Source: Xanthomonas sp. GPE 39 (lineage in GTDB: Bacteria > Pseudomonadota > Gammaproteobacteria > Xanthomonadales > Xanthomonadaceae). From it: a DNA stretch of 64,000 nucleotides. Both the position numbers and the translations under genes were made by a program. Below the pieces are notes generated by a model. The model ran no database searches and was not told the origin of the DNA. It saw only the letters and a program-made list of their open reading frames with translations. The DNA lies in NCBI RefSeq assembly GCF_000963005.1, contig NZ_JZHZ01000007.1, positions 3,355,456 to 3,419,455 on the forward strand, in the 5' to 3' direction. Within the stretch, counting starts at the first letter, position 1. The number at the start of each line of letters is the position of its first letter. Below, in pieces: positions 13,769 through 25,667 of this stretch.

Positions 13769-14755
13769 ATGGACGATCTATCGCCTTCGGATCTGAAAAC
13801 GATCCTGCATTCCAAACGCGCCAACCTGTACTACCTGCAACACTGCCGGGTACTGGTGAATGGCGGCAGAGTCGAGTATGTCACCGACGCAGGCAAACGC
13901 TCGCTGTACTGGAACATCCCGATCGCCAACACAACAACACTGTTGCTCGGAACCGGCACATCGATCACCCAAGCGGCCATGCGCGAACTCGCCAAGGCCG
14001 GGGTGCTGGTGGGCTTCTGCGGCGGTGGCGGCACGCCCTTGTTCTCCGCCAACGAGATGGATGTCGAGATCGCTTGGTTCTCCCCGCAAAGCGAGTACCG
14101 CCCGACCGAGTACCTGCAGGCATGGGTCGGGTTCTGGTTCGATGACGACCTGCGCCTGAGCGCCGCCAAAGCCTTCCAGCTCGCACGTGCGCGCCGCATC
14201 GGCGCGCAATGGCAACAGCGCGCACTGCACGATGGCGGATTCGCGCCGGACCTGGCGCGGTTGCAGACATTGCTCGAACGCACAGCCAGCGCCATCGCAC
14301 TGGCACAGGACAACACCGCCCTGCTCACCGAGGAGGCACGGCTGACCAAGGCACTGTTCAAACTGGCGGTGGACACCGTGGGGTACGGCGACTTCACCCG
14401 TGCCAAGCGCGGGACGGGCAGCGACGCGGCCAACCGCTTCCTCGATCACGGCAACTACCTGGCCTACGGGCTGGCGGCAAGCGCGACCTGGGTGCTGGGT
14501 CTGCCGCACGGCCTTGCTGTGCTGCATGGCAAGACGCGGCGTGGAGGACTGGTGTTCGATGCCGCCGATCTGGTCAAGGATGCCAGCATCCTGCCGCAAG
14601 CCTTCCTATCCGCCATGCGCGGCGACGACGAGCAAACCTTCCGGCAGAACTGCATCGAAGCGCTCGCGCGCAGCGAGTCATTGGATTTCATGATCGACAC
14701 GCTCAAGGACGTGGCACTGGCGACCCAGGCACTGCAACGCGAGCAACCGCGATGA
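13769..14755 (+). CDS. cas1: CRISPR-associated integrase Cas1 (type I-F)
   Basis: This spacer-integration endonuclease has 328 residues, the usual I-F length. The N-terminal beta-rich domain includes SITQAAMRELAKAGVLVGFCGGGGTPL. The helical catalytic domain has Glu188/189 in LLTEEARLTK, His253 in VLHGKTRRGG and Asp264/267 in FDAADLVKD, matching the E-H-D metal site of the Pseudomonas aeruginosa enzyme. AGGGGA precedes the ATG. Its stop overlaps the ATG of cas3 (ATGA), so the two are translationally coupled. With the Cas2 domain fused to Cas3 it forms the I-F Cas1:Cas2-3 adaptation complex. Confidence 0.98.
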   Translation: MDDLSPSDLKTILHSKRANLYYLQHCRVLVNGGRVEYVTDAGKRSLYWNIPIANTTTLLLGTGTSITQAAMRELAKAGVLVGFCGGGGTPLFSANEMDVEIAWFSPQSEYRPTEYLQAWVGFWFDDDLRLSAAKAFQLARARRIGAQWQQRALHDGGFAPDLARLQTLLERTASAIALAQDNTALLTEEARLTKALFKLAVDTVGYGDFTRAKRGTGSDAANRFLDHGNYLAYGLAASATWVLGLPHGLAVLHGKTRRGGLVFDAADLVKDASILPQAFLSAMRGDDEQTFRQNCIEALARSESLDFMIDTLKDVALATQALQREQPR

Positions 14756-17700
14756 ATATCCTGCTGGTCTCCCAATGCGACAAGCGTGCACTGAAAGAAA
14801 GCCGGCGCATATTGGACCAATTCGCCGAACGGCGCGGCGATCGCACCTGGCAAACGCCGATCACCCGCGCCGGCCTGGACACCTTGCGCAAACTGCTGCG
14901 CCGCACCGCACGCAAGAACACCGCCGTGGCCTGTCATTGGATTCGCGGCCTGGACCACAGCGAGTTGCTGTGGGTGGTCGGCGACGCCAGCCGATTCAAC
15001 GCACAGGGCGCCGTACCCACCAACAGCACCGCGCGCGATGTCTTGCGCCGCGAAGACGAAAACGACTGGCATTGCGCCGAAGACATTCGCCTGCTGGCGC
15101 AATTGGCCGCGTTGCTGCACGACCTCGGCAAAGCCAGCCTTGCGTTCCAGGCGCGCCTGCGCGGCGAGTTGAAAGAACGCAACCTCTACCGCCACGAATG
15201 GGTGTCTTTGCGCCTGTTCCAAGCCTTCGTCGGCGAGGATGACGATGCCGGCTGGTTGCAACGGCTGGCCGATCCCGAACACGATCATACGCCGTGCTGG
15301 ACAGCCGAAGGACGCTACCGCCGCGACGGCCTGGATGCCGAGCCCGGAGCTCCCTTCCGCACCCTGCCGCCGCTGGCCGCCGCCGTCGCCTGGCTGATCC
15401 TGACCCATCACCGCCTGCCGCTGGCGCCGTTCAAGACAGACGGCAGGCAAGACTGGCTGGGCCGGCGCGTGCAACACACCATATCGACCTGGATGGAACT
15501 GCCGCTGTCTCTGGTCGAGCACGATTGGAACGAGATCCGCGTGCAAGCGGAACCTGCCAGGATCGCCGCGTACTGGACGCTCGCCGGCCCATTGCCGGTC
15601 GCAACGCCAGCCTGGCGCGCACAGGCGGCGCGGCTGGCCAAACGCCTGGATACGCTGCGCCTGCGCAGACCCGAAGGCTGGCTCGACAATCCCTACGTCA
15701 TGCACCTGGCGCGGCTCAGCCTGATGCTGGCCGACCATAGCTATTCGCGTCTGGGCCTGGACCGCAACGACCAACCCGTCGCCGAGCGCACGCGGCATGT
15801 GCAGCAACACGCCACGCTTGCCGCCAACACCACCTGCAACCGTGCCGGCAAGATCGTCCGCAATCAGTCACTGGAGGAACACCTCCTCGGCGTCGCCCAC
15901 ACTGCGGGATTGGTCGCACATGCGCTGCCCGGCTTCGAGCGGTTTCTGCCGCGACTGGCGCAGCATCGCGGCCTGCGCAAGCGCAGCGCCGACTCGCACT
16001 TCGCCTGGCAGAACAAGGCCGCCGACGCGGCCACGGCGTTGCGCGAGTCCGCCTGCGAGCACGGCGCCTTCATCGTCAACATGGCCTCCACCGGCTGCGG
16101 CAAGACCCTGGGCAACGCGCGCATCCTCTACGCACTGGCGGACCCGCAACTGGGCCTGCGCCTGACCTATGCGCTCGGCCTGCGCACCCTCACCCGACAA
16201 ACCGGCGACAGCTATCGGCGCGATCTGCACCTCAACGACGACACGCTCGCCATGCTCGTCGGCGGCTCCGCCAGCCGTCCCCTTTTCGATCACCACAAAC
16301 GGGAAGCCGCCGCCAGCGGCTCGGCCTCGATACAAGCGCTGATCGAGGAAGACAGCCACGTCCTCTACGACGGCGCGGAAACCGAACATCCGTTGTTGTC
16401 GCGCGCACTGCACGATTCGCAAATGCGCAAACTGCTATCGGCACCGATGCTGGTCTGCACCGTCGACCACATGGTGCCGGCCACCGAATCGCTGCGTGCC
16501 GGCCGCCAGATCGCGCCGATGCTGCGGCTGATGAGCGCCGACCTGATCCTCGACGAACTCGACGACTACGACATCGACGACCTGCCCGCGCTGACGCGGC
16601 TGGTGCACTGGGCCGGCCTGCTCGGGACCCGTGTGCTGTTGTCCTCCGCAACGCTGCCACCGGCCTTGGTCGAAGGCATGTTCGCCGCCTATCGCACCGG
16701 GCGCGCGCACTATCGGCGCAATCGCGGTGTCGATGGCGGGCGCGCCGATGCGCTGATCGAGATCCCTTGTCTGTGGACCGACGAGTTCGATGCGCATACC
16801 GCGCATTGCGTCGATACCGAGGCATTCGCCGCCCAGCATGCGCAATTTGTCGCAAAGCGTGCGACCAAATTGCGCACGACCGCGCCACTGCGACGCGGCG
16901 AACTGGTTCCATTGCAGATCCAGGCGCGGCAACCGGAGCAGATCCATGCCGCGTTCGCGCAACATCTGCGCGAGGCGATCCAGCGCCTGCACGGCGCGCA
17001 CGCGCAAACCGACCCGGTCAGCGGCAAGCGGGTCAGCTTCGGCCTGGTGCGCATGGCCAATATCGGACCGCTGATCGACGTGGCGCAGGCACTGTACCGA
17101 CTCGGCGCACCCTCCGGCCTGCGCATCCACCTGTGCGTCTACCACGCGTGCTTTCCCCTGTTGGTGCGCTCGGCAATCGAACACCTGCTCGATGCGGCGT
17201 TCGACCGCCGCCAGGCCGATGCGGTGTATCGCTTGCCCAGCGTGCGCGCCGCGCTCGATGCACATCCGGAACCGGACCATGTGTTCGTGGTCCTGGCTTC
17301 GCCAGTATGCGAAGTCGGACGGGACTGGGACGCAGATTGGGCCATCGCCGAACCCTCTTCGCTGCGCTCGCTCATCCAGTTGGGCGGTCGCGTGCAACGC
17401 CACCGACGCACGCCTGGCACCGCCGCCAACCTCCTGATCTTCGATACCAACCTGCTGCATTTCCACAAACTCGACCAGGACGCACCGGCCTATGTGCAAC
17501 CGGGATTCGAGCAGAACGATACCGACGGCACGCGTGCTGGACGTTTCCGCCTACAGACCCATCGCCTCGGCAAACTCCTGCGCGAGGACGAGTACCGTGT
17601 CCTCACCGCCCTTCCCCGGATCCAACCGCCGGAGCCCCCCTGGCATCCTCAAGAGCGCCTGTGCGATCTGGAACATGCACGGCTGAGTGAGGCCATGCTG

Positions 17701-18168
17701 CCCAAATCGCGCGAGGCCGCTGCGCCGTCACGACGCAGCGCTCCATCGTTCTCCCTGGATGCGGCATGTGCCTGGCAATACCCGCACGCCATGCTGACCG
17801 GCGTGCTGCCGCAGCAACAGCCGTTCCGTCACGACACCACACCGACAGACACCCTGGTGTTTCTAACGGACGACGACGAGGAACGCGTGGTGCTGCATCG
17901 CATCGAAGCCGGCGATCGCCATCGTAGCGACACGCTCTACACCATCGTAGAGCGCAGCGCATGCGCGCCGCTCGCACTCGAACCTAGCCCAGGCATCGCG
18001 CCCTGGGGCGAATTCGACCTGATGACGCTACTCACCGAGCAGGCCGAACAGCTCGGCTTGTCGTTGCAGGACTGTGCCAAGCGGCTGGCGACGGTGAACG
18101 TGCCGAATGGCAAGGACGGGAAGAAGTGGGGATATCACCCGTTACTAGGATTCAAATCCCCGAATTAA
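14752..18168 (+). CDS. cas3: Cas2-3 fusion nuclease-helicase (type I-F Cas3)
   Basis: This 1138-residue protein combines adaptation and interference functions. The first ~95 residues (MNILLVSQCDKRA...) are the Cas2-like domain characteristic of I-F systems. An HD nuclease follows with LLHDLGKAS (H123, D124). The SF2 helicase has Walker A STGCGKT (446-452), a DELDDYD DExD box (601-607), motif III SATLPP (632-637) and motif VI QLGGRVQRHRR (876-886). The frame runs far upstream through cas1, but the ATG at 14752 overlaps the cas1 stop and begins the Cas2 fold. In this class Cas3 is recruited to Csy-bound DNA and degrades it, while the Cas2 part scaffolds Cas1. All key motifs look intact. Confidence 0.98.
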   Translation: MNILLVSQCDKRALKESRRILDQFAERRGDRTWQTPITRAGLDTLRKLLRRTARKNTAVACHWIRGLDHSELLWVVGDASRFNAQGAVPTNSTARDVLRREDENDWHCAEDIRLLAQLAALLHDLGKASLAFQARLRGELKERNLYRHEWVSLRLFQAFVGEDDDAGWLQRLADPEHDHTPCWTAEGRYRRDGLDAEPGAPFRTLPPLAAAVAWLILTHHRLPLAPFKTDGRQDWLGRRVQHTISTWMELPLSLVEHDWNEIRVQAEPARIAAYWTLAGPLPVATPAWRAQAARLAKRLDTLRLRRPEGWLDNPYVMHLARLSLMLADHSYSRLGLDRNDQPVAERTRHVQQHATLAANTTCNRAGKIVRNQSLEEHLLGVAHTAGLVAHALPGFERFLPRLAQHRGLRKRSADSHFAWQNKAADAATALRESACEHGAFIVNMASTGCGKTLGNARILYALADPQLGLRLTYALGLRTLTRQTGDSYRRDLHLNDDTLAMLVGGSASRPLFDHHKREAAASGSASIQALIEEDSHVLYDGAETEHPLLSRALHDSQMRKLLSAPMLVCTVDHMVPATESLRAGRQIAPMLRLMSADLILDELDDYDIDDLPALTRLVHWAGLLGTRVLLSSATLPPALVEGMFAAYRTGRAHYRRNRGVDGGRADALIEIPCLWTDEFDAHTAHCVDTEAFAAQHAQFVAKRATKLRTTAPLRRGELVPLQIQARQPEQIHAAFAQHLREAIQRLHGAHAQTDPVSGKRVSFGLVRMANIGPLIDVAQALYRLGAPSGLRIHLCVYHACFPLLVRSAIEHLLDAAFDRRQADAVYRLPSVRAALDAHPEPDHVFVVLASPVCEVGRDWDADWAIAEPSSLRSLIQLGGRVQRHRRTPGTAANLLIFDTNLLHFHKLDQDAPAYVQPGFEQNDTDGTRAGRFRLQTHRLGKLLREDEYRVLTALPRIQPPEPPWHPQERLCDLEHARLSEAMLPKSREAAAPSRRSAPSFSLDAACAWQYPHAMLTGVLPQQQPFRHDTTPTDTLVFLTDDDEERVVLHRIEAGDRHRSDTLYTIVERSACAPLALEPSPGIAPWGEFDLMTLLTEQAEQLGLSLQDCAKRLATVNVPNGKDGKKWGYHPLLGFKSPN

Positions 18169-18270
18169 TTTTTTGTCTCTTACCAATTCCTCCAAACATA
18201 GTAGAAGTTATAAAAGCATGTTGTCGTCACCAAGTTGCAGCCATCCCCAAAGCCAACGAAAGGATTCCAC
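18169..18270 (+). promoter_or_regulatory. AT-rich gap, possible internal promoter for csy genes
   Basis: About 100 nt, clearly more AT-rich than the surroundings, separate cas3 from csy1, while other cas genes overlap or nearly touch. It contains a TTATAAAAG stretch near 18209 and a good ribosome-binding site (AAGGA) 6 nt before csy1. I infer a separate csy promoter, but no clean -35/-10 pair is visible. Confidence 0.35.
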
Positions 18271-19638
18271 ATGACAGAAGACCCGCAACATCTCACCCGC
18301 TCCGAACGCTTCCGCTCGGCCATCGCCGCGTTCATCGACGCGCGGCGCGAGGCCAAGCTGAAGAGCAATGAGGGCGATAGCGACACAGACGCCAAGTACG
18401 ACTACGCCACCTGGCTGTCGGACGCGGCCCGCCGAGTCGGCCAGATCCAGGCCGTGACCCATGTACTCAAGGCCACCCACCCCGACGCGCGCGGCAGCAG
18501 CCTGCACATCGCTCCCGCCCGCTTGCAAACACACGCGGAAGTCGGCACGCACACGCTCGGCGCGGACTATGCCGAGGACGTGGTCGGCAACGCCGCAGCG
18601 CTGGACGTGTTCAAACTGCTCAAACTCGAAGTCGACGGTCGGCGCCTGCTCGACTGGATGCAGGAAGACGACGCGGATCTGCGTGCGGCACTGCATGAAA
18701 ATGCCAAGGTCGCCTCGGACTGGATCGGGGCATTCTGCAATCTGGTCCGTCACGATGCCCAACCCAGCTCGCACCAGGCCGCCAAGCAAGTGTACTGGTT
18801 GGTCGGCGACGAGCCGAAAGACGATACCCACTACCACCTGCTGCAACCGCTGTTTTCCAGCAGCTTGGCGCACGCGGTGCATGCGGATATTCAGGACGCG
18901 CGTTTCGGGGAAACCAACAAACAAGCGCGCCAGGCTTACCGCGAAAAAGATCCATTCGACGGTACCTACCGCGACTACCGCAATCTGGTTGCACGCAAAC
19001 TCGGCGGCACCAAGCCGCAGAACATCAGCCAACTCAATAGCGAGCGCGGCGGCATCAACTACCTGCTGGCCTCGCTACCACCACATTGGACGCAAGAAGA
19101 GCGTCCTCGCAGTTTGCTCAAGCTGGACTCGGCGCTGGATCGCTTCTACCGGTTCGAAGGTGTGCGACACCTCCTCAAGACACTGAGCGATTTCCTGCTG
19201 AGTAATCCGCCGCAGAACCAAGACACACGAGAACGACGCGAAGCAATCGAGCAAGCACTTGGTCTGCACTTGAGCTACTTCGCCAGCACCATCCACGCCC
19301 GCTTCGAGCCTGGCTGGACCCGCGATCCAGACTGCCAACTCCCCACATGCGAACAATTGTGGTTGGACCCCGAGCGCACCGCCCTGGCCGACCGCGAAGA
19401 CGCCGAACATCCCGAATGGACGCAGCAAGATCGCGCCTTCAAAGCCGCCTACGATTTCGGCGACTGGCCGGACGAGGTCGCAGGATCCTTCGCCACCTGG
19501 GTCAATGACCGACTACGCGCCGCCGGAATCGTCGGCCTCGGCGACGACCAATACCGGCATTGGGCCAAGCAAGCCATCGTCGATGCCGCCTGGCCAGTCC
19601 CGATGCGACGGCGTGCTCCGGCCGGAGGTGCGGCATGA
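18271..19638 (+). CDS. csy1: Csy1 / Cas8f, large subunit of the type I-F Cascade
   Basis: This subunit of the Csy surveillance complex has 455 residues and binds the crRNA 5' handle and PAM-side DNA with Csy2. Family hallmarks seen are RFRSAIAAFIDARREAKL at the N-terminus, NISQLNSERGGINYLLASLPP in the middle, and RFEPGWTRDPDCQLPTCEQLWLDP near residue 360. Length is close to the Pseudomonas protein (about 434). The frame extends upstream to 18235, but the ATG at 18271 has AAGGA 6 nt before it. Its stop overlaps the csy2 start. Confidence 0.97.
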   Translation: MTEDPQHLTRSERFRSAIAAFIDARREAKLKSNEGDSDTDAKYDYATWLSDAARRVGQIQAVTHVLKATHPDARGSSLHIAPARLQTHAEVGTHTLGADYAEDVVGNAAALDVFKLLKLEVDGRRLLDWMQEDDADLRAALHENAKVASDWIGAFCNLVRHDAQPSSHQAAKQVYWLVGDEPKDDTHYHLLQPLFSSSLAHAVHADIQDARFGETNKQARQAYREKDPFDGTYRDYRNLVARKLGGTKPQNISQLNSERGGINYLLASLPPHWTQEERPRSLLKLDSALDRFYRFEGVRHLLKTLSDFLLSNPPQNQDTRERREAIEQALGLHLSYFASTIHARFEPGWTRDPDCQLPTCEQLWLDPERTALADREDAEHPEWTQQDRAFKAAYDFGDWPDEVAGSFATWVNDRLRAAGIVGLGDDQYRHWAKQAIVDAAWPVPMRRRAPAGGAA

Positions 19639-20618
19639 ACAATTGCCCGACCTTCGACCACTTGCTGGTGGTGCCACACTTGCGCGTGCAGAACGCCAAT
19701 GCCGTTTCCAGCCCGCTCACCCACGGCTTCCCCTCGATGACCGCGTTCCTGGGCCTGATGTGGGCGCTGGAACGCAAGACCATCGACGCCGGGCTGGATC
19801 TGGCCTTCAACGCGGTCGGCGTGGTCTGCCACGACCATCAGGAACAGGTCACCGAAGGCGGCTTCGTCAAGAGTTTCCGCCTGACCCGCAATCCGGTGAA
19901 CAAAGATGGTGGAACCGCCGCCATTGTCGAGGAAGGCCGCATCCACCTGGAACTGAGCCTGGTATTCGCGGTGCACAGCAAACGCTGGCTGGCCGATCCG
20001 TCCACCCACGCCGCGGATCTGGCCGTGGTGACCGACCTGCTGGCCGGCATGCGCGTCGCCGGGGGCAGCGTGCTACCGCCGCCGCACCCCCAGCGTCCAC
20101 GCTATCAAGCGCAGGTCATCGCCTGCACTGGCACGCCGTCCGACCAACAGGCGCTGTTCCGCAAACTGCGGCTGCGGCTGTTGCCCGGCTTCGCCCTGGT
20201 GGCACGCGACGATCTGCTCGACACGCGGTTGGCCGAACTGCAAACGCACACGCCCGAGGCCACCGCTTTGCACGCCTGGCTTTCGCTGTCGCGCATCAAC
20301 TGGCGTCACGTGCCGGATGCGGCGGCGGGCAAGGGCGAGTGGCAACACGATCGCGCCGGCCGCGGCTGGATCGTGCCCATCCCGGTGGGCTACGGCGCAC
20401 TCGGAGCCGTGCACGAGCCCGGCAGCGTCGCCAACGCGCGCGATGCCAACACCCCGTTCCGCTTCGTCGAGAGCCTGTACTCGGTCGGCGAATGGATCAG
20501 CCCGCACCGCCTGCAATCACTGCACCACCTGCTCTGGTACGCCGACAGCCAACCCGCTGCCGACCTGTACCGCTGCCGTAACGATTATCGCCCAGCTACC
20601 ACCCACAACTTCGATTGA
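19635..20618 (+). CDS. csy2: Csy2 / Cas5f, type I-F Cascade subunit
   Basis: This 327-residue protein matches the length of the Pseudomonas Csy2. The N-terminus ([32 protein letters not shown]) and the C-terminal [19 protein letters not shown] are characteristic. In the Csy complex it forms the tail heterodimer with Csy1 at the crRNA 5' handle. The ATG at 19635 overlaps the csy1 stop (ATGA), giving translational coupling. Confidence 0.97.
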
Positions 20619-20644
20619 CCACACGCACGACAAGGAATTCCATC

Positions 20645-21694
20645 ATGGCTCACGATACCCTCAAGACCGCATCCGTCCTCGCCTTCGAGCGCAAACTCGA
20701 TCCGTCCGACGCGTTGTTCTTCTCCGGCAGTTGGTCCACACGCAAGGCTGCACACGATTGGCCGCCGGTGCGCATCCGCGAAAAATCGGTGCGCGGCACC
20801 ATTTCCAATCGGCTCAAGGACAAGAGCAAGGAACAATCCGACCCCGCCAAACTCGACGCGGCCATCCAGAACCCCAACCTGCAGACCGTGGATGTCGCCG
20901 CGCTCCCGCTGGAGGCGGACACGCTGAAAGTGCAGTTCACCCTGCGCGTGCTTGGCGGCACGGGCGAACCTTCCGCCTGCAACGCGACCGACTATCGCAA
21001 CAAACTCCGCGCCACTGTCGGCGGCTACCTCCAGCAGCATGGCTTCGGCGAACTGGCACGGCGTTATGCGGCCAATCTCGCCAATGGCCGCTTCCTCTGG
21101 CGCAACCGCATCGGTGCAGAACAGGTGGAAGTGCATGTCGCCCACCTGCGCGACGGTAACCCAGCGACTCAGTGGACCTTCCAGGCGCTTGACCATGCGC
21201 TACGCACGCTGTCCGCACCCGACGACGCAGCCGAGAGCCTGAACGCCTTGGCCGCGACCATCGCCGACGGCCTGACCGGCAAGACACATGTGCTGCTGCA
21301 AGTCACCGCCTTCGTCCGCATCGGCGCGGGGCAGGAAGTATTCCCCTCGCAGGAATTGATCCTGGACCGCGGCCGCGGCGACAAAAGCAAGACGCTCTAC
21401 GCCGTCGGCGAAGGCGACAAAACCGTGGCAGCCATTCACTCGCAGAAGATCGGCAATGCACTGCGCACCATCGACACGTGGTACCCGGATGTGGAGGAAA
21501 ATGGCGCGATTGCCGTCGAACCCTATGGCTCGGTGACCACGCAAGGCAAAGCGTACCGGCAACCGAAGGACAAGCAGGACTTCTACAACCTGCTCGACGC
21601 CTGGGTCATCAAGGACAAAGTGCCGAGCGTGGACCAACAGCATTTTGTCATCGCCACGTTGATTCGCGGCGGCGTATTCGGCGAGTCGAACTGA
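20645..21694 (+). CDS. csy3: Csy3 / Cas7f, type I-F Cascade backbone
   Basis: This 349-residue protein forms the six-copy filament along the crRNA spacer. It starts with [25 protein letters not shown], a conserved Csy3 beginning, and contains [12 protein letters not shown]-like and [12 protein letters not shown] segments typical of the family. An AAGGAA box lies 7 nt before the ATG at 20645, which is preferred to the upstream in-frame ATG at 20615. It follows csy2 by 26 nt and is followed by csy4 after 9 nt. Confidence 0.97.
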
Positions 21695-21703
21695 GGCGAA
21701 ACG

Positions 21704-22270
21704 ATGCAGCATTATCTCGATCTGCACCTTCGCCCCGACCCGGAGCTTGCGCCCTATCAATTGCTTGGCGCGCTGTACGCGCGCCTGCACCGAGCACTGG
21801 TGACATTGAACACCACCAGGGTCGGCGTGAGCTTCCCCGGCCATGACAACCGCGTACCGACGCTGGGGACGCACCTGCGGCTGCATGGTGACGCGCACAC
21901 CTTGCAGGAACTGATGGCAACCAATTGGCTGCATGGTATGGGCGACCATATGACCATCACAAACATCGGTGCCGTGCCACCGGATGCCGTGCACCGACAC
22001 GTAACGCGCGTACAGGCCAAGAGCAGCCCCGCCCGCCTGCGTCGGCGGGCCATGCGCCGACATGGCATCAGTGAGGATCTCGCCGTGCAACGCATTCCGG
22101 ATTCGGCGGCCGAACAGGTGCGACTTCCATTCGTCGTCCTGGGCAGCCGCAGCACCGGCCAAGCCGCGTTCCCGGTATTCGTCAAGCATGGCCCCGTACA
22201 GCATGACCCTGTCGCTGGCGACTTCAGCAGCTATGGACTCAGCCGGGGAGCGACCGTTCCCTGGTTCTGA
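21704..22270 (+). CDS. csy4: Csy4 / Cas6f, crRNA-processing endoribonuclease
   Basis: This 188-residue enzyme cleaves pre-crRNA after the repeat stem-loop and remains bound to the crRNA 3' end. Active-site residues align exactly with the Pseudomonas aeruginosa enzyme: His29 (LYARLHRAL), Ser148 (VVLGSRS), and Tyr177 one position from its Tyr176. An arginine-rich helix at residues 111-119 (RLRRRAMRR) matches the helix inserted in the RNA major groove. The repeats downstream carry the expected CTGCC/GGCAG stem. It is the last cas gene, 130 nt before the array. Confidence 0.98.
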   Translation: MQHYLDLHLRPDPELAPYQLLGALYARLHRALVTLNTTRVGVSFPGHDNRVPTLGTHLRLHGDAHTLQELMATNWLHGMGDHMTITNIGAVPPDAVHRHVTRVQAKSSPARLRRRAMRRHGISEDLAVQRIPDSAAEQVRLPFVVLGSRSTGQAAFPVFVKHGPVQHDPVAGDFSSYGLSRGATVPWF

Positions 22271-22315
22271 CCCTTTTTTCTTACGTCCAAACCCACCAAG
22301 GAAAAACAACCACTT

Positions 22316-22352
22316 AGCAGCCGCCCAAGAAAAAGGGGTCGGCTGCTTTTCT
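22316..22352 (+). terminator. Hairpin with T-rich tail between csy4 and the array
   Basis: Arms AGCAGCCG (22316-22323) and CGGCTGCT (22340-22347) form an 8-bp stem, followed by TTTCTTT. The 16-nt loop is A-rich. It fits a terminator for the cas operon, which would leave the array to its own promoter, or it may be a structural part of the leader. Confidence 0.6.
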
Positions 22353-22359
22353 TTACCCG

Positions 22360-22399
22360 TTTACCTTCCAGTTCAAAGACTTGGATAATAGGATGGCTA
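22360..22399 (+). promoter_or_regulatory. Candidate CRISPR leader promoter
   Basis: TTTACC (22360-22365), an 18-nt spacer and GATAAT (22384-22389) form a reasonable sigma-70 promoter. Transcription would start near 22396, just before the first repeat at 22400. The leader is thus the csy4-proximal side, consistent with the degenerate repeat at the far end. Predicted from sequence only. Confidence 0.5.
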
Positions 22400-25300
22400 G
22401 TTCACTGCCGTGTAGGCAGCTCAGAAATTCGGGGCCTAAACCTTCCTAAGGTGCCGATCGTTCACTGCCGTGTAGGCAGCTCAGAAAAGTACCAAGCAGC
22501 GACCTCCACAGCGTCGTCCGTTCACTGCCGTGTAGGCAGCTCAGAAAACAAACGAGGAAGTACTAGCGGCTAAAGCGGGGTTCACTGCCGTGTAGGCAGC
22601 TCAGAAAACAGGTGCCGCGCCGCCGCCCGCTCCGCCACCGTTCACTGCCGTGTAGGCAGCTCAGAAAGCGCGGGCTTACTTGCGGTGCTGGTCTACGTCG
22701 TTCACTGCCGTGTAGGCAGCTCAGAAATTTGGGGCGCGCACGTAGTTGGCCGGCAGCACGTTCACTGCCGTGTAGGCAGCTCAGAAACGTAGCTTGATCT
22801 AGGCGCATCGGCTGTGTGCGTTCACTGCCGTGTAGGCAGCTCAGAAAGGAGATTGCGGATATCAAGCCGCGTTTGTATGGTTCACTGCCGTGTAGGCAGC
22901 TCAGAAAACGACGATTTGTGCTGCTGGGAACGGCAAACAGTTCACTGCCGTGTAGGCAGCTCAGAAAACACGGCACGCGCGATTTGATTGATTGCGCCGG
23001 TTCACTGCCGTGTAGGCAGCTCAGAAATCGTCATCCAGCGCTTCGCCCTTGGCGAATCAGTTCACTGCCGTGTAGGCAGCTCAGAAATGCTTCGGGCGGC
23101 GCTTGAGTCAGCGGCGGATGTTCACTGCCGTGTAGGCAGCTCAGAAATTCATCTGCGAGCGCATTCACCAATTCAATGCGTTCACTGCCGTGTAGGCAGC
23201 TCAGAAATACGCAGGCGTACGTAGACGTAACGCTCTTTATGTTCACTGCCGTGTAGGCAGCTCAGAAAGCGTAAGACCAGCCGAGTGACAGGGTGTTATT
23301 GTTCACTGCCGTGTAGGCAGCTCAGAAACATGCGCGACGCACCACCACCACCACCCACGGGTTCACTGCCGTGTAGGCAGCTCAGAAAGAATGTTGGACC
23401 ACGGTGGATTGCAGAAGACGGTTCACTGCCGTGTAGGCAGCTCAGAAATACGACACGCCGACGGATTATGCGAAGGCGCAGTTCACTGCCGTGTAGGCAG
23501 CTCAGAAACTTGACCGGAGCCGGCTGAGCGGACTTGTCAAGTTCACTGCCGTGTAGGCAGCTCAGAAATGCTGTTGATGACGTTGCCGCAGCCGCTGCCG
23601 GTTCACTGCCGTGTAGGCAGCTCAGAAAGTTCATAGCGGCTTCGTTGCCCTCGTCGCCCAGTTCACTGCCGTGTAGGCAGCTCAGAAAACTCCGCCGTCC
23701 CTGCTGATTGATCCGTCTGCGTTCACTGCCGTGTAGGCAGCTCAGAAAGGCTGCACGCCACGAGGCGGGCCGACGGGGTCGTTCACTGCCGTGTAGGCAG
23801 CTCAGAAACATCCAGACTGCAACGATGGCTGGATCCGCTGGTTCACTGCCGTGTAGGCAGCTCAGAAAGATGCCTTCAAGACGCGGTCGTCCTGCAAAAC
23901 GTTCACTGCCGTGTAGGCAGCTCAGAAAATTCTGGGGGCTGTATGGCTCGCATTGGATTCGTTCACTGCCGTGTAGGCAGCTCAGAAAACGGCCAGCGCG
24001 CTGTCGATCGCCTTGGCAACGTTCACTGCCGTGTAGGCAGCTCAGAAAAGCACAGAGTTGCAATACGACGACCGCCCTTTGTTCACTGCCGTGTAGGCAG
24101 CTCAGAAAAATTATCCGCCGCAATCGCGCGCGCGTTCTATGTTCACTGCCGTGTAGGCAGCTCAGAAAGTAACTCCGGCGCTGCGAAGCAGAGCACCAGG
24201 GTTCACTGCCGTGTAGGCAGCTCAGAAAAAGCAAGAGCACCGCGCCGGCGGCCGGAACCGGTTCACTGCCGTGTAGGCAGCTCAGAAATTCCCTCGTTTT
24301 GCCGCGCCGGGGTGGCTTGGGTTCACTGCCGTGTAGGCAGCTCAGAAATCTTTAACGAGGGTTATACCGACAGCTATAACGTTCACTGCCGTGTAGGCAG
24401 CTCAGAAAGCAAACGACGATTGATGCAGCAACAATACCCGGTTCACTGCCGTGTAGGCAGCTCAGAAACGCAGATACCGCAAAAGGTCTACGTCCCTGTC
24501 GTTCACTGCCGTGTAGGCAGCTCAGAAAGAGCAAGAGCAATGCCCGAGATGTGAACGCATGTTCACTGCCGTGTAGGCAGCTCAGAAATGCTGGCAAGAT
24601 CATCGGGATACCGCGAAATTGTTCACTGCCGTGTAGGCAGCTCAGAAAGACCAGGCCAAGAATCGAGGCGGTGAATGCGAGTTCACTGCCGTGTAGGCAG
24701 CTCAGAAATTGAAGTCCTATCCGGGAATCCTGTCGTCGCTGTTCACTGCCGTGTAGGCAGCTCAGAAAGCAACATCTTGATCTGATATGTCCACCCTGCC
24801 GTTCACTGCCGTGTAGGCAGCTCAGAAATTCGGTGGAAGCCAGCCGAGCGTGAAGTAGTAGTTCACTGCCGTGTAGGCAGCTCAGAAATTTTTCTGCGAC
24901 CCGTAGGGGGCCATGGTTGTGTTCACTGCCGTGTAGGCAGCTCAGAAAAAGTGACAAACGGCAATCAGCTTCTGGTCGTCGTTCACTGCCGTGTAGGCAG
25001 CTCAGAAAAAGAGAAAGCGATGCGTCAAACGACAAGCCGGGTTCACTGCCGTGTAGGCAGCTCAGAAACGCATGCGTTTGCCGCTGCGAGCCTGACGTCG
25101 GTTCACTGCCGTGTAGGCAGCTCAGAAAATCTGATTTGCTACCGCCGCGATGTTGCAAATGTTCACTGCCGTGTAGGCAGCTCAGAAAGCAATCGCGCGC
25201 GCGTTCTATCTATCCAAGCCGTTGACTGCCGTGTAGGCAGCTCAGAAATGACGTCCCGCACGTCTACGGCGTGCTTGAGCGTTCACTGCCGTGTAGGCAG

Positions 25301-25667
25301 CTCAGAAAAGTCCTGCGCAATCTCCGCACGCAAGCCTGGGGTTCACTGCCGTGTAGGCAGCTCAGAAAGGCAAGCCCGTGGAGGGCTACCGCAATGCGGC
25401 GTTCACTGCCGTGTAGGCAGCTCAGAAATCCGCAATCCCCCCCTATATATCGGGGATACAGTTCACTGCCGTGTAGGCAGCTCAGAAAGTTCCGAATCAA
25501 CACGGCCGCTCAAGGGAAGCGTTCACTGCCGTGTAGGCAGCTCAGAAAAGTGCTTTCGCAGATTGCTGCAGCTCGGCCTTGTTCACTGCCGTGTAGGCAG
25601 CTCAGAAAAACCGCGACAATGACCAGGAGAAACTAAGTGAGTCACTGCCGTATAGGCAGCCCAAAAA
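22400..25667 (+). CRISPR. Type I-F CRISPR array, 55 repeats and 54 spacers
   Basis: The 28-nt repeat starts GTTCACTGCC, contains the stem-loop CTGCC-GTGTA-GGCAG and ends with the 8-nt handle CTCAGAAA; it is the I-F repeat cleaved by Csy4 after GGCAG. Repeats occur every 60 nt from 22400 to 23180 (14 copies) and from 23241 to 25581 (40 copies). A degenerate 55th copy is at 25640-25667. Spacers are 32 nt except number 14 (33 nt) and the last (about 31 nt). All full copies are identical apart from the 48th (25221), which has C-to-G at position 4, outside the stem. Orientation is the same as the cas genes. The degenerate repeat marks 25667 as the old, leader-distal end. Spacers 29 and 47 overlap in sequence. 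Confidence 0.99.
25640..25667 (+). repeat. Degenerate terminal CRISPR repeat
   Basis: The last repeat differs from the consensus at its first two bases, has GTATA instead of GTGTA in the loop, and ends CCCAAAAA instead of CTCAGAAA. The stem CTGCC/GGCAG is intact, so Csy4 could still cut it. Its loop sequence is that of the classical Pseudomonas I-F repeat. Confidence 0.9.

Follow-up and report, generated by a model that had tools for sequence, protein, structure and literature searches.

How two spacers of a natural CRISPR array come to overlap, and whether one of them preserves the protospacer-adjacent motif (PAM) of the other, is the question raised by the locus studied here. An earlier reading made from the sequence alone (hereafter the sequence-only reading) had pointed to spacers 29 and 47 of a type I-F array in the window, i.e., the whole stretch of 64,000 nt that was analysed.

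The type I-F1 array and its cas genes

The array consists of 55 repeats of 28 nt and 54 spacers (Table 1). The spacers are 32 nt long in 52 of the 54 cases, the exceptions being spacer 14 (33 nt) and spacer 54 (31 nt). The terminal repeat (25640-25667) carries five changes. In addition, one base is changed in the repeat directly 3′ of spacer 47 (25221-25248), all other non-terminal repeats being unchanged.

The genes cas1, cas2-3, cas8f, cas5f, cas7f, and cas6f are found together at 13769-22270, directly 5′ of the array, and PADLOC showed that each of the six matches its I-F profile over nearly the entire profile. The start given for cas2-3 is approximate, being that of the stretch scanned (the Pfam scan began at 14209), and the true starts of cas8f and cas5f may fall within their ORFs, the profile matches covering residues 54-444 and 36-339, respectively. 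The type I-F1 gene set, including the cas2-3 fusion, is complete in this one locus, and the array has the 28-nt repeat and, in 52 of 54 spacers, the 32-nt spacer length of type I-F1. It is a normal type I-F1 array. Given the position of the presumed leader beside cas6f and the degenerate terminal repeat at the opposite end, the low-coordinate end, on the cas6f side, appears to be the newer end of the array.

Elsewhere in the same genome, the repeat of this array recurs in two small satellite arrays, G000:C1:480669-480929 (L040) and G000:C1:389970-390237 (L041), each of which has a changed first and last repeat. Similar small satellite arrays were also seen in another genome of the genus (G001).

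Table 1. Positions of the cas genes, the array, and the spacers discussed, in window coordinates
Feature	Position	Strand	Remarks
cas1 (Cas1f)	13769..14755	+	PADLOC Cas1f, E 5e-153; Pfam Cas_Cas1
cas2-3 fusion	14755..18168	+	PADLOC Cas23f, 1219.8 bits, full length; Pfam Cas3_I-F_Cas2
cas8f (csy1)	18235..19638	+	Pfam and PADLOC profile matches
cas5f (csy2)	19560..20618	+	PADLOC Cas5f, E 2.3e-103
cas7f (csy3)	20615..21694	+	Pfam and PADLOC profile matches
cas6f (csy4)	21704..22270	+	Pfam and PADLOC profile matches
Presumed leader	22271..22399	+	Between cas6f and the first repeat; presumed from position
CRISPR array (type I-F)	22400..25667	+	55 repeats of GTTCACTGCCGTGTAGGCAGCTCAGAAA, 54 spacers
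Spacer 1	22428..22459	+	32/32 match in X. albilineans plasmid plasmIII (NC_017555.1), CC in front
Spacer 6	22728..22759	+	31-32/32 in Xanthomonas conjugative plasmids; CC in 3/3 records read
Spacer 29	24109..24140	+	Taken up after spacer 47, given the presumed leader end
Shared 21-nt block, spacer 29 copy	24120..24140	+	Positions 12-32 of spacer 29
Spacer 42	24889..24920	+	30/32 in mobF relaxase gene, X. campestris plasmid; CC in front
Spacer 47	25189..25220	+	Taken up before spacer 29, given the presumed leader end
Shared 21-nt block, spacer 47 copy	25189..25209	+	Positions 1-21 of spacer 47
Spacer 54	25609..25639	+	29/31 between mobB and relaxase gene, Burkholderia plasmid; CC in front

Spacers 29 and 47 overlap by 21 nt

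Sequence comparison showed that spacers 29 and 47 have an exact 21-nt block in common, on the same strand and at an offset of 11 nt; the coordinates, the spacer numbering, and the block given by the sequence-only reading were all exact. The next longest block common to any two spacers of the array is 10 nt on either strand. In 2000 simulated arrays (first-order Markov), same-strand blocks common to two spacers reached 15 nt at most, compared to the 21 nt seen here, so chance identity of the block is excluded. The block includes an alternating G/C run, which cannot alone account for 21 exact bases. In the 3.53-Mb genome that carries the array, the 21-mer occurs at these two array positions only. 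The exact block supports the proposal that one 43-nt target was sampled twice on the same strand, 11 nt apart.

A survey of 12 array stretches from seven genomes of the genus, with 311 spacers in all, gave one same-strand pair overlapping by at least 14 nt. These stretches were a selection from the arrays of seven of the 20 genus genomes, chosen for strong matches to the array. A frequency of one pair per 311 spacers is in line with a rare chance event.

A CC within spacer 29 marks the PAM of spacer 47

The two bases directly 5′ of the shared block in spacer 29 (its positions 10-11) are CC. The sequence-only reading took them for the PAM of the protospacer of spacer 47 and saw in this an evidence of PAM use that needs no database. 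The latter statement was too strong, since CC accounts for 120 of the 1674 dinucleotides in the spacers of the array and would by composition stand before one block with a likelihood of ~7%; external protospacers are therefore needed.

Such protospacers were available for spacers 1, 6, 42, and 54, whose near-perfect targets (29/31 to 32/32) have CC directly in front at 6/6 places read. The array thus shows the 5′-CC PAM of type I-F1 for four spacers with matches of 29/31 or better, and a 5′-CC PAM has been validated for the I-F1 system of X. albilineans (PMC10810201). With these two lines of evidence, the identification of the CC within spacer 29 as the PAM of the spacer 47 protospacer is well supported. 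The PAM of spacer 29 itself was presumably CC as well.

Weaker candidate targets (26-28/32) were found for spacers 4, 27, 41, and 47, and CC was in front at 0/10 of these places: one for spacer 4 (28/32), seven for spacer 27 (26-28/32), one for spacer 41 (28/32), and one for spacer 47 (26/32, in a Propionibacteriaceae metagenome-assembled genome, MAG). They are read as chance or decayed homologues. The line of 29 matches between strong and weak targets was drawn after the results had been seen; counting every candidate with at least 26 matches among the loci examined, CC was in front for four of eight spacers. The matches of spacer 27 in seven genus genomes (CC 0/7) probably represent a conserved chromosomal stretch and were discarded, as was the match of spacer 41 on a 41-kb contig of genome G019, which has its mismatches at the seed end. 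For genome G017, which belongs to a different species of the genus, three phage matches were found, with CC in the exact position in one, shifted by one base in one, and absent in one.

In the 32-nt spacers of the 12 array stretches, the first base was A or T in 193/289 cases, compared to 127/289 at position 16. This may be a preference beyond the CC PAM; 5′ adenines are the subject of a heading in PMC5059440.

The array records conjugative and mobilizable plasmids

The near-perfect targets of spacers 1, 6, 42, and 54 are all carried by plasmids classed as conjugative or mobilizable. That of spacer 1 (NC_017555.1, 22768-22799) is in a hypothetical-protein gene directly before trbC/virB2. A search with the whole array gave matches in 252 of 72,556 plasmid records at E ≤ 1; at E ≤ 0.1 there were 130 plasmid records, 98 of them from Xanthomonas. 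The near-perfect targets were taken from the matches listed, namely 60 of the 130 (E ≤ 0.1) and 30 of the 252 (E ≤ 1). Judged from their length and piece number, the longest plasmid matches look like other CRISPR arrays reached via the repeat. The same search against 50,697 phage records gave three matches at E ≤ 1, none of which reached 85% over a whole spacer, and no phage match was found for the main array of G001. The search of the array's own genome gave five matches, and the four listed are all in CRISPR arrays.

No target for the overlapping pair in the collections searched

As the sequence-only reading had proposed, the merged 43-nt target was sought in phages, plasmids, and genomes of the family (in pieces in the last), and no target was found. 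By blastn at E ≤ 10 there were 27 phage and 47 plasmid records; among the best 20 of each, none covers 80% of the query and the best E was 0.6-0.7. In viral_contigs, neither the exact 21-mer, nor exact sub-pieces of the merged target, nor codon-degenerate patterns for its four open frames gave a match. With up to three mismatches, the 21-mer was found in 20 genus genomes (own included) at three places beyond its own genome, all with three mismatches; these places match spacer 29 or 47 at ≤24/32 and have CC in front in 0/3. A search for 27 nt of spacer 47, allowing three mismatches, in 395 genomes of the family (own included, sampled from a larger group) gave its own array only.

In genome_contigs, the exact 21-mer occurs in one copy, in the Propionibacteriaceae MAG, where its flanks diverge. 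By our reading of its translation, this stretch resembles an ABC ATPase signature. As ~0.1 exact matches are expected by arithmetic in 257 Gb even with uniform bases, the copy is read as chance.

The nearest likeness found was in G001, which has two exact 22-nt matches to spacer 29 (its positions 5-26; E 0.006 each). The stretch is present in two copies, C15:66529-66739 (L065) and C10:9898-10106 (L067), which are 93-100% alike over 211 nt; it matches spacer 29 at 25/32, diverges beyond the 22 nt, and has CA in front. In the array's own genome, G000:C1:2530091-2530117 (L068) matches spacer 29 at 20/32 with CC in front. Both were dropped as targets and regarded as chance or distant likeness, and they could possibly be decayed relatives of the target. 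Self-targeting by the pair was sought with the two 20-nt ends of the merged target in the same genome, where, with up to three mismatches, they were found in the array and at one three-mismatch place. The invader was probably a plasmid or phage absent from the collections searched. With no source found, it is the 21 nt by themselves that argue for a common origin of the two spacers.

Origin of the pair

We consider it very likely that the pair arose by two uptakes of 32-nt pieces from the same strand, 11 nt apart, of one invader or two close relatives, spacer 47 being taken first, beside a CC. The Cas1:Cas2-3 machinery would have taken these pieces on two occasions, with 17 other retained spacers between them; spacer 47 would have come first, beside the CC now seen within spacer 29, and the second uptake would have been either a chance re-sampling or an interference-driven uptake near the site cut by the crRNA of spacer 47, two routes between which the data do not separate. 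The exact block and the 17 intervening spacers, which make one single event unlikely, support the claim of the sequence-only reading that there were two separate acquisitions from the same or a related invader. By array order, with the leader end as presumed, spacer 47 is older than spacer 29.

Random sampling of CC sites was used to calculate the expected number of same-strand pairs overlapping by at least 14 nt. For a 24.4-kb plasmid stretch, 0.038, 0.16, and 1.2 pairs are expected when 10, 20, and all 54 spacers, respectively, come from it; for a 44.3-kb surrogate, the corresponding values are 0.020, 0.083, and 0.62. Since this sampling gives 0.02-0.16 pairs for 10-20 spacers from one element, two independent acquisitions suffice and no special mechanism is needed. 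The idea that the overlap is a sign of strong priming was rejected, random sampling being enough.

A special case of two uptakes is that the crRNA of spacer 47 cut a fully matched target and that a piece beside the cut became spacer 29. This interference-driven uptake is possible, though less likely than not. Spacer 29 holds the CC and the first 21 nt of the spacer 47 target, as would be expected of a still-matched target, and in type I-F targeted acquisition is reported to be more robust than escape priming (PMC5059440). The sequence-only reading, which had suggested that spacer 47 possibly primed spacer 29, objected that primed sites normally spread further from the priming site. The data for type I-F show the opposite, newly acquired protospacers being concentrated around the priming site on either strand (PMC4117759, PMC5059440). 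The objection therefore does not hold, and the position of spacer 29 near that of spacer 47 agrees with such clustering (PMC4117759). However, relative to spacer 47, spacer 29 is displaced towards the PAM without a change of strand (3′ on the target strand). Only ~20% of primed events are of this class (PMC4117759); the position is possible under priming and not diagnostic of it. Moreover, no other spacer of the array has more than 10 nt in common with spacer 29 or 47, and random sampling does not require such a route.

In classical escape priming, a mutant invader evading spacer 47 would have triggered the uptake of spacer 29. The order in the array would agree with this, since with the presumed leader end spacer 47 is the older one. 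However, the source of spacer 29 had CC at the PAM and matched spacer 47 perfectly at positions 1-21, the first eight included, so no change in PAM or seed relative to spacer 47 was found in the part covered (CC and 21/21), and this source had not escaped spacer 47 through a mutation in PAM or seed. An escape change would have had to fall in the last 11 nt of the spacer 47 target, which spacer 29 does not cover. This explanation is improbable; classical escape priming is unnecessary, whereas interference-driven uptake is possible.

It is still harder to accept that two unrelated elements converged on a conserved 21-mer, e.g., one encoding the ARAFY part of an ABC-ATPase-like signature, and we regard this as very improbable. 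The exact 21-mer in the MAG stretch read as an ABC ATPase signature would speak for it, as would frame 3 of the merged target, LSAAIARAFYLSK, which resembles that stretch. However, the MAG place matches spacer 47 at 26/32 with TC rather than CC in front and with diverging flanks, the 27-nt part of spacer 47 is confined to its own array among the 395 family genomes, and a padded 14-residue query of frame 3, a search of low sensitivity, found nothing in plasmids. Duplication or recombination within the array, making one spacer from the other, can practically be dismissed: exchange between repeats duplicates or removes repeat-spacer units as a whole, whereas spacers 29 and 47 each have 11 private nt, are both 32 nt long, and both lie between complete repeats.

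Comparison with known systems

CRISPR-2 (type I-F) of 'Xanthomonas pseudalbilineans' GPE 39, described from a 3.5-Mb draft genome, has 28-bp repeats, cas1, cas3, csy1-4, and at least 54 spacers, and its spacer-54 matches a plasmid gene of X. albilineans GPE PC73 with 100% identity (PMC4584326). The window array resembles it in having 54 spacers and a leader-end spacer that matches an X. albilineans plasmid at 32/32, and is very probably this CRISPR-2, with the spacers counted in the opposite direction. No CRISPR-2 spacer of GPE 39 is reported to match its own genome, and the account of CRISPR-2, as far as it was available to us, makes no mention of an overlapping pair, of a PAM, or of other plasmid targets (PMC4584326). 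Both GPE PC73 (2006) and GPE 39 (1997) originate from Guadeloupe (PMC4584326, Table 1); if the window belongs to GPE 39 and plasmIII to GPE PC73, as seems likely, the array and the plasmid come from the same island.

The I-F1 system of X. albilineans CFBP7063 (GPE PC73) shares with the window the validated 5′-CC PAM and the presence of several I-F1 arrays in the genome, five in X. albilineans (PMC10810201). It differs in that the two systems of CFBP7063 together hold 24 self-targeting spacers (PMC10810201), whereas the own-genome matches listed for the window array, four of five, are all in CRISPR arrays.

Overlapping protospacers at nearby PAMs have been seen in experimental acquisition from pMGB1 in S. 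solfataricus (PMC4390879), and overlapping prespacers at nearby PAMs in primed adaptation of E. coli (PMC6282206). These cases differ from the present one in subtype and in their experimental set-up, and are not two spacers in one natural array. Primed and interference-driven acquisition in the type I-F system of Pectobacterium shows a CC/GG PAM, mostly 32-nt spacers, and clustering near the targeted site (PMC4117759, PMC5059440); there, however, the priming target is known, whereas the target of spacers 29 and 47 was not found here. A narrow literature search on overlapping spacers and protospacers gave no account of the 29/47 pair.

Biological meaning

The pair is real but ordinary: it indicates that one invader, or a close relative of it, entered the immune record on two occasions, and it leaves the knowledge of type I-F immunity unchanged. 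What is new is the test for CC at the targets of four spacers, the plasmids recognized as targets, a calculated expectation for such pairs, and the finding that the PAM and the first 21 nt of the spacer 47 target were intact in the second source. One spacer that carries the PAM of another gives a view of a PAM and of 43 nt of an invader absent from the databases, and the PAM read in this way from spacer 29 agrees with the outside targets. For the history of the strain, it means that, at the time of the second record, the invader still carried the PAM and the first 21 nt of the first site unaltered.

A more far-reaching reading, which we hold to be quite improbable, is that the staggered pair was selected as a double lock against escape. 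A single change in the PAM or the first 8 nt of the spacer 47 target would fall at positions 10-19 of spacer 29, outside the first 8 nt of the latter, and so one seed or PAM change cannot escape both spacers. If this were true, natural type I-F arrays may retain such staggered pairs because a target, once cut, supplies further pieces from the same site for uptake.
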